DNA from: Rhizobium sp. Leaf306
GTDB taxonomy: Bacteria; Pseudomonadota; Alphaproteobacteria; Rhizobiales; Rhizobiaceae
DNA: 64,000 bases
Assembly: GCF_001423425.1 (NCBI RefSeq)
Contig: NZ_LMNX01000001.1
Location: 1,260,970-1,324,969 of the forward strand
Reading direction: 5' to 3'
Below, in pieces: positions 15,177 through 25,750 of the stretch. Both the position numbers and the translations under genes were made by a program. Every line of letters begins with the position of its first letter. Within the stretch, counting starts at the first letter, position 1. The notes under the pieces were generated by a model. It worked only from the letters and a program-made list of their open reading frames with translations, had not been told where the DNA came from and made no database searches.

Positions 15177-16084
15177 GCCTTGCCATGCAGCGCAGAGGAT
15201 ATGCGAGCAGGATCGGCGAGATCGCGCTGTGGGGATCTGCCGCTATCCTTGTGCTCACGGTCCACATTGCCGCCGCAGCTCTTCTGATGAGGCAAGAGCC
15301 GGAGGAACTCGCCGACAACGGTCCGCAGGCCGCCATCATGATCGAGCTTGCGCCGGAGCCGGAGGCGGCGATCCCAGACGAAGAGCAGATCGCTACCGAC
15401 ACCGAAGACCGGCAACTGGTCGAGACCCAGCAGACCGAGCCGGTCGAAGAGGTCGAACCCATCGAGGAGCCGCCACCGGTCGAACCGCCACCGGAAGTGG
15501 CTGAGGAGATACCCGAACCGCCGCCGGAACCCGTGATCGAGACGCCGCTGCCGGAGGAAACGCCCCCGCCGCCGGAGATCGTCGAAACGCCGCCGCCCGA
15601 GCCTGTCGATCCGATCGAGCAGAAGGTCACCGCAGCGTTGGAGAACGTGGAAGTCCCGCTGCCGGTCACTCGTCCACCACCACCGAAGCCGGTCCAGAAG
15701 GTAGAAAAGCCACGCCGTCAGCCGCAGGCGCAGAAGGAAAAGGCGCAGGCAAAGGTTCAGGCAAAGCCGTCGGAGCGCACGGCCGCTGCGCAGACCTCGA
15801 GCGGATCGGTGGCCTCGACGATGTCACCGTCCACCTGGATGACCCGTGTGCGCACGAAGATCGCCCGTAATGCCCGCCGCTGCCCGTCCAACCAGAAGGG
15901 GATCGTGACGATCAGCTTCAATTTCGATAGCGATGGCAATATCGGGCGCGTGTCCGTTGCCAGATCGTCTGGAGATACGCGTATCGACGACTACGTCGTC
16001 TCAGCCGTTCGGCGCGCATCACCTGTTCCGATCGCACCGGCAGGTGTTGCAAGCCTCGTCACTCAGTCGGTAGAGTGCAAGTAG
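15173..16084 (+). CDS. tonB: TonB family protein
   Basis: A 303-residue periplasm-spanning protein. One N-terminal TM anchor (about residues 17-38) is followed by a very Pro/Glu-rich stretch at about 60-165 (repeated PPPE and VEEP units) and a Lys/Gln-rich linker. The C-terminal TonB domain covers about 220-303 (RRCPSNQKGIVTISFNFDSD). It transmits proton-motive force from ExbB/ExbD to outer-membrane siderophore or haem receptors. No receptor gene lies beside it, so this is a general energising operon. Iron control by RirA is suggested by the IRO-like box upstream of exbB. Confidence 0.93.
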   Translation: MSLAMQRRGYASRIGEIALWGSAAILVLTVHIAAAALLMRQEPEELADNGPQAAIMIELAPEPEAAIPDEEQIATDTEDRQLVETQQTEPVEEVEPIEEPPPVEPPPEVAEEIPEPPPEPVIETPLPEETPPPPEIVETPPPEPVDPIEQKVTAALENVEVPLPVTRPPPPKPVQKVEKPRRQPQAQKEKAQAKVQAKPSERTAAAQTSSGSVASTMSPSTWMTRVRTKIARNARRCPSNQKGIVTISFNFDSDGNIGRVSVARSSGDTRIDDYVVSAVRRASPVPIAPAGVASLVTQSVECK

Positions 16085-16140
16085 CCGTGCTTTCGGGTTC
16101 GGTTGCCCTCCTTAACACTCGCTCCCGGAACAGCTTGTCC

Positions 16141-17133
16141 ATGCAGATTACCCTTGAAGAAGCCGAAACGCTGGTGAGCGGCGTTTTCGAAGCCAACGGC
16201 GTGCTTGATAGCACCGCACGCTCGGTTGCCCGCGCCCTGGTGCAGGCGGAAGCCGCCGGCCAGTCCGGTCATGGGCTTCGCCGCATCCCGGCCTATGTCA
16301 AACAGGTGCGGACCGGCAAGGTCGACGGCAGTGCTCTCCCTGAGGCGAGCAGGCCTCGACCCGCAGTTCTTGCAATCGACGCGAACTTTGGCTTTGCCTA
16401 TCCGGCGCTCGATCTCGCTGTCTTGGAACTTCCAGCGATTGCGCGCGAACAGGGCATCGCCTTTGCCGCCATCAACCGTTCGCACCATGCAGGCGTCATG
16501 GCGTTGACCGTGGAGCGCTTTGCCGAGCAGGGGCTGGTTGCGATGATGTTTGCCAACGCGCCCGCCTCCATGGCCCCCTGGGGTGGCAAGGTGCCGCTGT
16601 TCGGCACCAATCCGATCGCTTTTGCGGCGCCTATTGCCGGTGACGAGCCGCTGGTCATCGATCTAGCACTCTCCAAGGTTGCCCGCGGCAAGGTGATGGA
16701 AGCGACCCAGAAGGGCACCAGTATTCCCGACGACTGGGCGTTCGACACCGACGGCAATCCGACAACCGACGCATTTGCCGCGATCAAGGGAACGATGGCG
16801 CCATCCGGGGGCGCCAAGGGGGCAGCGCTTGCACTCATGGTCGAAGTGATGGCGGCCGGCATCGGCGGTGCGCATTACTCCTACCAGGCCAGCTCGCTGT
16901 TTGACGAGACCGGACCTCCGCCGGCGCTTGGCCAGTCGCTGATCGTCATCGATCCGGATGCCACGACGGGTGGCGGCGCGGCAGAACGCTTTGCGGCATT
17001 GGCGAGCGAAATGGCAAAGCAGGACGGTGTCCGCCTGCCCGGCCGGCGCGGCCGCGGTCTTCGCGCCGAAAGCATCCAGCACGGTCTCAAGATCGACGAC
17101 GACGTGATGAAGGCGATAGAAGCTCTGGGCTGA
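16141..17133 (+). CDS. Ldh family (malate/L-lactate/ureidoglycolate) oxidoreductase
   Basis: A 330-residue NAD(P)-dependent dehydrogenase of the Ldh_2 family, which is unrelated to classical lactate dehydrogenase. Motifs seen are GQSGHGLRRIPAYVKQVRTG, NRSHHAGVMALTVERFAEQG with the catalytic His region, APWGGKVPLFGTNPIAFA, and the C-terminal PGRRGRGLRAES. The family includes malate, sulfolactate, delta1-piperideine-2-carboxylate and ureidoglycolate dehydrogenases, and the sequence alone does not decide between them. Start chosen at ATG 16141, where the family begins (MQITLEEAETL). It lies 56 nt after tonB and ends at its own terminator. Confidence 0.85.
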   Translation: MQITLEEAETLVSGVFEANGVLDSTARSVARALVQAEAAGQSGHGLRRIPAYVKQVRTGKVDGSALPEASRPRPAVLAIDANFGFAYPALDLAVLELPAIAREQGIAFAAINRSHHAGVMALTVERFAEQGLVAMMFANAPASMAPWGGKVPLFGTNPIAFAAPIAGDEPLVIDLALSKVARGKVMEATQKGTSIPDDWAFDTDGNPTTDAFAAIKGTMAPSGGAKGAALALMVEVMAAGIGGAHYSYQASSLFDETGPPPALGQSLIVIDPDATTGGGAAERFAALASEMAKQDGVRLPGRRGRGLRAESIQHGLKIDDDVMKAIEALG

Positions 17134-17159
17134 CCTGCAGATCCACCTTTATGCCGGAC

Positions 17160-17189
17160 AAGCCAGTGCAGCGATGCGCTGGCTTTTTC
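17160..17189 (+). terminator. Terminator after the Ldh-family gene
   Basis: AAGCCAG (17160-17166) pairs with CTGGCTT (17179-17185), with inner GCA/TGC pairing and a T-rich tail TTTTTCTT. It lies 27 nt after the dehydrogenase stop codon and probably ends transcription from the tonB side. Confidence 0.8.
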
Positions 17190-17254
17190 TTATTGCGCAG
17201 CAAGGCGTTCTGCGGAGGCAGAGCCGGTCATACAGAGGATTTTAAGGGATACAA

Positions 17255-17380
17255 AACGAGAAAAGCCTGGCGCGGGAGGAGGATGCGCCAGGCTTTAAAC
17301 TTGATCAACAACTGGGAGGAGGAGGGTGTTGTTGATCCGTATCGAACGACACTGGGAGGAGGAGGTGCGTCGTTCGATGA
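17255..17380 (-). ncRNA. alpha-r14-like anti-Shine-Dalgarno small RNA with three CCTCCTCCC loops
   Basis: Read on the minus strand, three perfect hairpins follow one another. The stems are at 17369-17378/17341-17350 (10 bp), 17328-17337/17303-17312 (10 bp) and 17285-17296/17262-17273 (12 bp), and each loop exposes CCTCCTCCC. The last stem is followed by TTTTCTCGTTTT and acts as the terminator. This is the layout of the alpha-r14 family of rhizobial sRNAs, related to the cuckoo/CcsR anti-SD RNAs, which are thought to pair with ribosome-binding sites. A good promoter is present. Length is about 125 nt. No ORF of note overlaps it. Confidence 0.85.
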
Positions 17381-17386
17381 CCAAAC

Positions 17387-17415
17387 TTCTAGCCATATCT
17401 TCCCGGTGCGCCAAG
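17387..17415 (-). promoter_or_regulatory. Promoter of the alpha-r14-like sRNA
   Basis: On the minus strand CTTGGC (17415-17410), 17 nt, CTAGAA (17392-17387) fits the rhizobial consensus CTTGAC-N17-CTATAT. It places the transcription start near 17380, just before the first hairpin. Confidence 0.65.
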
Positions 17416-17425
17416 AGGCTCTGCT

Positions 17426-17454
17426 GCAATGCAGCAATGCGTTTGCTGCATTGC
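17426..17454. repeat. Perfect 12-bp inverted repeat upstream of the sRNA promoter
   Basis: GCAATGCAGCAA (17426-17437), a 5-nt loop TGCGT, and TTGCTGCATTGC (17443-17454) form a perfect 12-bp palindrome. It lies 11 bp beyond the -35 box of the minus-strand sRNA and 137 bp before the RNase D-like gene. No T tract follows on either strand, so it is not an obvious terminator. It may be an operator or an RNA structure in the leader of the exonuclease gene. A second inverted repeat, CGGGATAA/TTATCCCG, lies at 17509-17516/17558-17565. The whole gene-free stretch is 17134-17591. Confidence 0.6.
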
Positions 17455-17591
17455 TGGGCAATTGCTCACGCGTTCGTGTTTCGTCGTCGCCAAGCGATAG
17501 CCATTGTCCGGGATAAGACGATGCGGCCGCGTGCTTCCACCGGAGCTTTCCTCTAGGTTATCCCGCATAGAGCCTGACAGCGGAGACACGC

Positions 17592-18218
17592 ATGAAGACG
17601 TCGATACGGTACCATCAAGGAGATATTCCAGCCTCTGACGCTGCGCGCTACACAGGCGCGATCGCAATCGATACGGAAACGCTTGGCCTCGTCCCGCGCC
17701 GCGACAGGCTTTGTGTCGTGCAGCTCTCACCAGGCGACGGAACCGCGGACGTCATCCGGATCGCAGCCGGGCAGAAGCAAGCTCCCAATCTCGTCGCACT
17801 GCTTGCCGATCCCGCCCGACAGAAAATCTTTCACTACGGACGCTTCGATATTGCGGTTCTGTTTCACACGTTCGGGGTTACGACCACGCCTGTCTTCTGC
17901 ACCAAGGTCGCATCGCGGCTCGTGCGGACCTATACGGATCGACACGGCCTCAAGGACAATCTGAGAGAGTTGCTGGACGTCGATATCTCGAAGGCGCAGC
18001 AGCAGACCGACTGGGCTGCCGAAACCCTGTCGCAGGCCCAGCTCGAATATGCGGCGTCCGACGTGCTTCACCTCCATGCGCTCCGCGACAAGCTGACCGA
18101 GCGCCTTCTCCGCGACGAGCGTATCGAACACGCGACGGCGTGTTTCGAGTTCCTGCCGACCCGAGCCAAGCTCGATCTGCTCGGCTGGGGTGAGACCGAC
18201 ATTTTTGCGCATAGCTGA
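17592..18218 (+). CDS. RNase D-like 3'-5' exonuclease, single DEDD domain
   Basis: A 208-residue protein consisting only of a DEDD exonuclease domain. Motif I is AIDTETLGLVPRRDRLCVVQ, motif II FHYGRFDIAVL, and motif III EYAASDVLHLHALRDKL with the Tyr and Asp of the DEDDy group. Unlike E. coli RNase D (about 375 aa) it has no HRDC domains. Rhizobia usually carry this short form alongside a full RNase D. It probably trims RNA 3' ends. The start follows GGAGACACGC. The gene is preceded by the palindrome-rich leader described at 17426. Confidence 0.88.
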   Translation: MKTSIRYHQGDIPASDAARYTGAIAIDTETLGLVPRRDRLCVVQLSPGDGTADVIRIAAGQKQAPNLVALLADPARQKIFHYGRFDIAVLFHTFGVTTTPVFCTKVASRLVRTYTDRHGLKDNLRELLDVDISKAQQQTDWAAETLSQAQLEYAASDVLHLHALRDKLTERLLRDERIEHATACFEFLPTRAKLDLLGWGETDIFAHS

Positions 18219-20330: not shown

Positions 20331-20366
20331 GAAAAAAGCCGCCGGATCTTTCGATCCGGCGGCTTT
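20331..20366 (-). terminator. Terminator of rpsA
   Basis: A perfect 14-bp stem (20335-20348 with 20353-20366, core GCCGCCGGATC) with loop TTTC. On the minus strand it is followed by TTTTTTC, so it ends rpsA transcription, 21 nt after the rpsA stop. It may also stop plus-strand reading from the Pro-rich gene, although there the tail is weaker. Confidence 0.9.

Positions 20367-25674: not shown

Positions 25675-25750
<76 letters not shown>

Follow-up and report, generated by a model that had tools for sequence, protein, structure and literature searches.

The 64-kb window analyzed here, that is, the whole stretch of the Rhizobium sp. Leaf306 genome under study, contains at positions 17382..17258 of the minus strand what is very probably (about 0.85) a genomic copy of the trans-acting sRNA alpha-r14 (ar14; NfeR1/cuckoo-type), a reading that includes transcription and the blocking of ribosome-binding sites, both of which we infer. 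Direct support exists for family membership, for covarying stems with conserved loops that carry the anti-Shine-Dalgarno motif, and for an upstream element that is likewise conserved and matches the published LsrB box. The Rfam model of ar14 (RF02344) matches the site over its full length (model positions 1–123 of 123) with 99.6 bits (E = 3.8e-17 in the 64-kb window), compared with a gathering score of 58.8 bits. This match bears out the assignment to an alpha-r14/cuckoo-type family that had been made in a preliminary description of the sequence. The locus is a further, ordinary copy of a published family, whose three-loop design for blocking ribosome-binding sites is already in print, and, in searches of one open-licence library, no trait of the locus was seen to fall outside what is described for that family. 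The biological gain is one more copy of ar14, and the case illustrates that a real sRNA gene can be recognized from raw sequence alone.

Genomic Context

The gene was described as lying between a dehydrogenase gene and an exonuclease gene, and its flanks are indeed an Ldh_2 gene and a gene for an RNase D-like 3'-5' exonuclease (rnd; Table 1). A strict test, namely three exact loop motifs on the minus strand, was applied to 80 named rnd loci, each taken together with as much as 3 kb of flanking sequence. Such motifs are present in 17 of the 80 loci, and the other 63 have none by this test. In eight of these 17 (L013, L015, L017, L033, L053, L059, L062, and L078), the copy is located within about 0.2–0.4 kb of rnd; in the remaining nine, it is farther away. 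Elsewhere in the window, the only Rfam matches at gathering scores are a small SRP RNA (RF00169; 476-572, plus strand) and a tRNA (25675-25747, plus strand).

Table 1. Features of the ar14 locus and its surroundings, with positions in the 64-kb window unless a genome and contig are given.
Feature	Position	Strand	Basis or remark
Ldh_2 dehydrogenase gene	16075-17133	+	convergent with the sRNA gene
Three-hairpin sRNA gene of the ar14 (alpha-r14) family, about 125 nt	17258..17382	-	Rfam match, fold, covariation
Anti-Shine-Dalgarno motif CCTCCTCCC, loop 3 (probable terminator hairpin)	17274..17282	-	motif search (start 17282), unpaired in fold; T-rich tail after stem
Anti-Shine-Dalgarno motif CCTCCTCCC, loop 2	17314..17322	-	motif search (start 17322), unpaired in fold
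Anti-Shine-Dalgarno motif CCTCCTCCC, loop 1	17354..17362	-	motif search (start 17362), unpaired in fold
-10-like CTAGAA	17387..17392	-	position by script; weak
-35-like CTTGGC	17410..17415	-	position by script; TTGGC with the same 17-nt spacing in 8/8 rnd-linked relatives
Perfect 12-bp inverted repeat, overlapping the conserved upstream element	17426..17454		12/12 arm positions in the window copy
LysR-type (LsrB-like) box TGCAGCAAACGCAT, exact TGCA-N6-GCAT	17437..17450	-	pattern; about -68 to -55 if the start is 17382
3'-5' exonuclease gene, RNase D-like (rnd)	17592-18218	+	
ar14 pairs in other genomes	G058:C3:51510 and 51787; G059:C18:1185644 and 1185929; G066:C3:119215 and 119515		same orientation

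Hairpins, Loops, and Covariation

The minimum-energy fold of 17245-17385 reaches -52.7 kcal/mol, compared with -24.5 kcal/mol (SD 3.0) for shuffled sequences (z = -9.4; 0 of 200 as good). The stems had been given as 10, 10, and 12 bp. The three hairpins, the 10 pairs of the second, and the 12 pairs of the third stand, whereas the first stem is longer than claimed because the fold gives 12 pairs (one of them G-U) plus 2. Every loop presents an anti-Shine-Dalgarno motif as described, and the three occurrences of CCTCCTCCC in these loops are the only ones on either strand of the 64-kb window. Three hairpins with CCUCCUCCC unpaired in each are a trait of the ar14 family. The last stem was proposed to double as a terminator; it is followed by the T-rich tail TTTTCTCGTTTT, and the third hairpin is a probable terminator. 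A terminator scan has no entry for this hairpin because loops longer than 8 nt are beyond its limit.

Three exact motifs were found at 74 loci, of which 68 are distinct; loci without three exact motifs are outside this count. The alignment has 40 rows, consisting of the window copy and 39 of the 68 distinct copies picked by hand, with apparent four-hairpin copies and near-repeats left out. The RNAalifold consensus of these 40 copies has 29 pairs, 21 of which show two-sided changes, such that the stems vary in sequence yet stay paired, another trait of ar14. The proportion of consensus cells that are paired is 99.0%, compared with 88.9% in shuffled alignments and 26.5–47.2% after a shift of the pairing partner by one to three columns; the consensus structure was derived from the same 40-row alignment, and the slid control retains relatedness, with a large difference. 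The covariation score is 0.451, compared with 0.243 in shuffles, which do not correct for relatedness; none of 500 shuffles scored as high. Hairpins 1 and 3 show no variation in the loop motif across the 40 rows, which is partly by construction because possession of the motif was how these copies were chosen.

Promoter and Upstream Element

A CTTGGC-N17-CTAGAA promoter had been proposed to fix the start of the transcript. Both the letters and the 17-nt spacing are correct, whereas the promoter role is plausible rather than proven because a consensus scan of 17100-17600 yields no (0) sigma-70-type promoters. All eight rnd-linked relatives have TTGGC at the matching place, 17 nt before a -10-like hexamer, and three of them have the complete CTTGGC. 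At the -10 place, these relatives have CTATAT (four copies) or ATTATA, CTTATA, ATATAA, and TTAGAA (one each). In Agrobacterium-type copies, the -35 place is occupied by CTGTT-like letters.

The strong palindrome noted just beyond the -35 box is present, with perfect 12-bp arms and a 5-nt loop, and is one of two distinct perfect repeats with arms of 12 bp and loops of 3–10 nt in the 64-kb window. The other of the two (arms of at least 12 bp) is located at 20335-20366, just downstream of a minus-strand S1-domain gene, and is probably a terminator. Within the palindrome next to the sRNA gene, positions 17450-17437 match the LsrB-type pattern TGCA-N6-GCAT, an upstream trait of ar14 that is read here as a sequence pattern. 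In the S. meliloti NfeR1 promoter, an LsrB box of this form at -72 to -60 was demonstrated with gel shifts and point mutations, and 29 nt of upstream sequence are conserved, according to excerpts of the published study (PMC10746234).

The pattern YGCR-N6-GCAW-NN-CTGC, which was built from the five ar14 copies of the Leaf306 genome, occurs upstream of 42 of the 68 distinct copies (40 of 66 when the two from the same genome are set aside). Among these 42 matches, 41 are located at -63 to -67 and one at -103. Across both strands of the 80 rnd loci (1,056,250 nt), the pattern occurs 10 times, and nine of these occurrences are ar14 promoters. When a spacer of five or six is allowed, the element is found at -63 to -68 in 33 of the 40 aligned copies, and seven are without it. 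In the five copies of the Leaf306 genome, the LysR-type element starts 85–89 nt before the first loop motif.

The palindrome was also considered as a conserved dyad, and this was rejected: the other 32 element-bearing aligned copies match 2–8 of the 12 arm positions in the window's frame, although in five copies a five-base spacer shifts the true frame by one base. When the repeat could be placed freely and many placements were tried, the best matches of these 32 copies are 6–9 of 12. Perfect symmetry is seen in the window copy alone and is not conserved. Because the element is conserved whereas only the window copy is perfectly symmetrical, the most fitting view of the palindrome is that of an activator site with embellishment, for which we infer a binding protein; it is accounted for as part of a conserved activator-type site.

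An NtrC-like site (TGC-N11-GCA) was not found at -101 to -116. The sole match within 150 nt upstream starts at -79, and the window as a whole has 44 matches to the pattern. Such a site is not defining for the ar14 family because the NtrC site of NfeR1 is said to be restricted to plant symbionts and is not evident in Agrobacterium or Brucella, as stated in the available portions of PMC10746234. On the genome scale, YGCR-N6-GCAW-NN-CTGC has 24 sites, compared with 11 for the reversed pattern. A wider regulon is not claimed from these counts because five of the 24 sites are the ar14 promoters that gave the pattern.

Copies and Distribution

The search for further copies in the Leaf306 genome gave five ar14 matches, all above the cut-off. 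Two have three hairpins and three have four (L002, L004, and L005; G000:C3:329146, G000:C3:581817, and G000:C8:62056). In the four-hairpin copies, the extra upstream hairpin is outside the three-hairpin Rfam match. Measured from the upstream element, this match starts about 34–39 nt later than it does in L001 or in the window copy. Over the five copies, 18 loops have CTCCTCCC, and 15 of these have CCTCCTCCC. Another copy, L001, is 37 kb from the window copy and scores 111.6 bits. About 0.6 kb from the L001 copy, there is a match to ar35 (RF02346; L001:730-871, minus strand) with 45.4 bits, compared with a cut-off of 45.

Within the genus, all 57 genomes searched (that of Leaf306 included) have ar14 over the cut-off, and the number of matches per genome ranges from three to nine. 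The family sample has 137 of 151 genomes (again with Leaf306 included) over the cut-off, and 146 have a match at E ≤ 0.001. In the class sample of 190 genomes, only the window's own genome is over the cut-off, and nine have a match at E ≤ 0.001. The 14 control genomes yielded no match. For 15 of the 80 named rnd loci, the source genomes were searched as well, and all are over the cut-off (15/15); this set is not independent of the genus set because at least five genomes, recognized by identical contigs and coordinates, are in both. Pairs of ar14 copies in the same orientation, about 280–300 nt apart, were observed in two Ensifer-named genomes and one Shinella-named genome (Table 1).

A speculative and rather doubtful reading is that the five copies of Leaf306 form one co-induced set, which would collectively exert a graded brake on mRNAs whose Shine-Dalgarno sequences are strong, the rnd-linked copy having a clade-specific core promoter of its own.

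Proposed Mechanism and Predicted Targets

Transcription by sigma-70 RNA polymerase would start at about 17382 and run leftwards, aided by a LysR-type (LsrB-like) activator, and the transcript would end at the third hairpin. Each loop would then pair with the purine-rich ribosome-binding sites (GGGAGGA and similar) of a set of mRNAs and may keep ribosomes from loading, with no need for Hfq, which is how NfeR1 of S. meliloti is described. In the accessible text of PMC10746234, NfeR1 is described as a 123-nt, Hfq-independent RNA whose three anti-Shine-Dalgarno loops are redundant and obstruct translation initiation regions, including that of ntrB.

The Leaf306 genome has 116 matches to GGGAGGA-N4-11-ATG, compared with 14 for the reversed pattern and 54 for TCCTCCC-N4-11-ATG. 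This excess is not specific evidence of targeting because any genome with strong Shine-Dalgarno sites would give such counts. Eleven sites with GGGAGGAGG before ATG, picked by eye among the matches listed (of 116 in total), have loop duplexes of -20.3 to -25.1 kcal/mol, compared with a mean of -7.6 and a minimum of -20.1 kcal/mol for 300 random 50-mers of the window against one loop; such strong duplexes are expected because the sites were chosen by the complementary word. Six of the 11 sites open frames of at least 155 codons, which encode a histidine kinase, a DctQ transporter part, an Lrp/AsnC-type regulator, a protein of the altronate-dehydratase type, an MFS transporter, and a carboxylesterase. 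The other five frames have 2, 22, 31, 45, and 113 codons. The genes led by GGGAGGAGG are predicted targets only.

At the ntrB site of Leaf306, AAGGAAGG, the loop duplexes reach only -8.5 to -9.0 kcal/mol, against the random 50-mer mean given above. By this estimate, the site appears to be weak, and the NtrB circuit of S. meliloti is therefore not evident in Leaf306. A duplex of -50.7 kcal/mol between the whole sRNA and the ntrB leader was set aside because the program ignores the hairpins within the sRNA.

Alternative Readings

The locus could be an ar14 gene by descent that is silent or nearly silent, with other copies, such as L001, doing the work. The genome has five ar14 copies, and the -10 hexamer of this one, CTAGAA, is weak. 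Moreover, the window copy may be silent because S. meliloti transcribes only one of its six copies to reliably detected levels, according to parts of the published work (PMC7143759). However, the copy adjoins rnd in 8 of the 80 named loci, and both the upstream element and the TTGGC-N17 core are retained. In addition, stem 2 of the window copy has A-U where all eight rnd-linked relatives have G-C, which is a compensated change. On balance, a silent paralogue is unlikely.

Far less probable is a CcsR-type RNA, which would be driven by RpoH, co-transcribed with a DUF1127 protein, and involved in stress and C1 metabolism. CcsR1-4 of Rhodobacter sphaeroides share the CCUCCUCCC loops, and the model for CcsR1 (RF02791) gives a weak match that is limited to the first two hairpins of the gene. 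However, this match has 30.7 bits and stays below the cut-off of 65.3 bits, so the CcsR model, which had been named alongside alpha-r14 as a check, came out negative. As for the partner gene, a Pfam scan of six small frames around the sRNA (of 14 frames of at least 20 aa listed) gave nothing at E ≤ 0.1, hence no DUF1127, and the flanking genes are Ldh_2 and the exonuclease. Membership in CcsR was rejected on the score and because none of the six frames encodes a recognizable DUF1127 protein. The stretch between the two flanking genes is rich in hairpins and might be taken for a mere terminator or repeat region with no sRNA, although the covarying stems, conserved loops, full covariance-model match, and conserved upstream element all argue against this reading, which is highly improbable.

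Comparison With Known Systems

The founding member of the family is NfeR1 (SmelC397, smrC14) of Sinorhizobium meliloti. The window copy resembles it in length, in its three hairpins whose loops all present CCUCCUCCC, in the variability of its stems, in belonging to a multi-copy set within the genome, and in the upstream TGCA-N6-GCAT. The window copy differs from NfeR1 in its location beside rnd and its TTGGC-type -35, and it has neither the NtrC-like site at -101 to -116 nor a good match to the ntrB ribosome-binding site. AbcR1 and AbcR2 have anti-Shine-Dalgarno seeds that are similar but not identical, and AbcR1 is also activated by LsrB; unlike NfeR1, these RNAs are not Hfq-independent, as far as the passages at hand of PMC10746234 go. 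No AbcR-type family is among the Rfam matches at 17258..17382.

Three- and four-hairpin forms, multiple copies per genome, stress induction, and presumed blocking of ribosome-binding sites are described in sections of earlier reports (PMC3927594; PMC7143759), and extracts of another give the family 2–4 hairpins (PMC4504443). The cuckoo RNAs SmelA075 (three hairpins) and SmelA099 (four hairpins) have the loop motif and modular hairpins as seen here, and no difference from them was found. The four-hairpin form of SmelA099, as presented in part of PMC3927594, is paralleled by three of the five copies in the Leaf306 genome.
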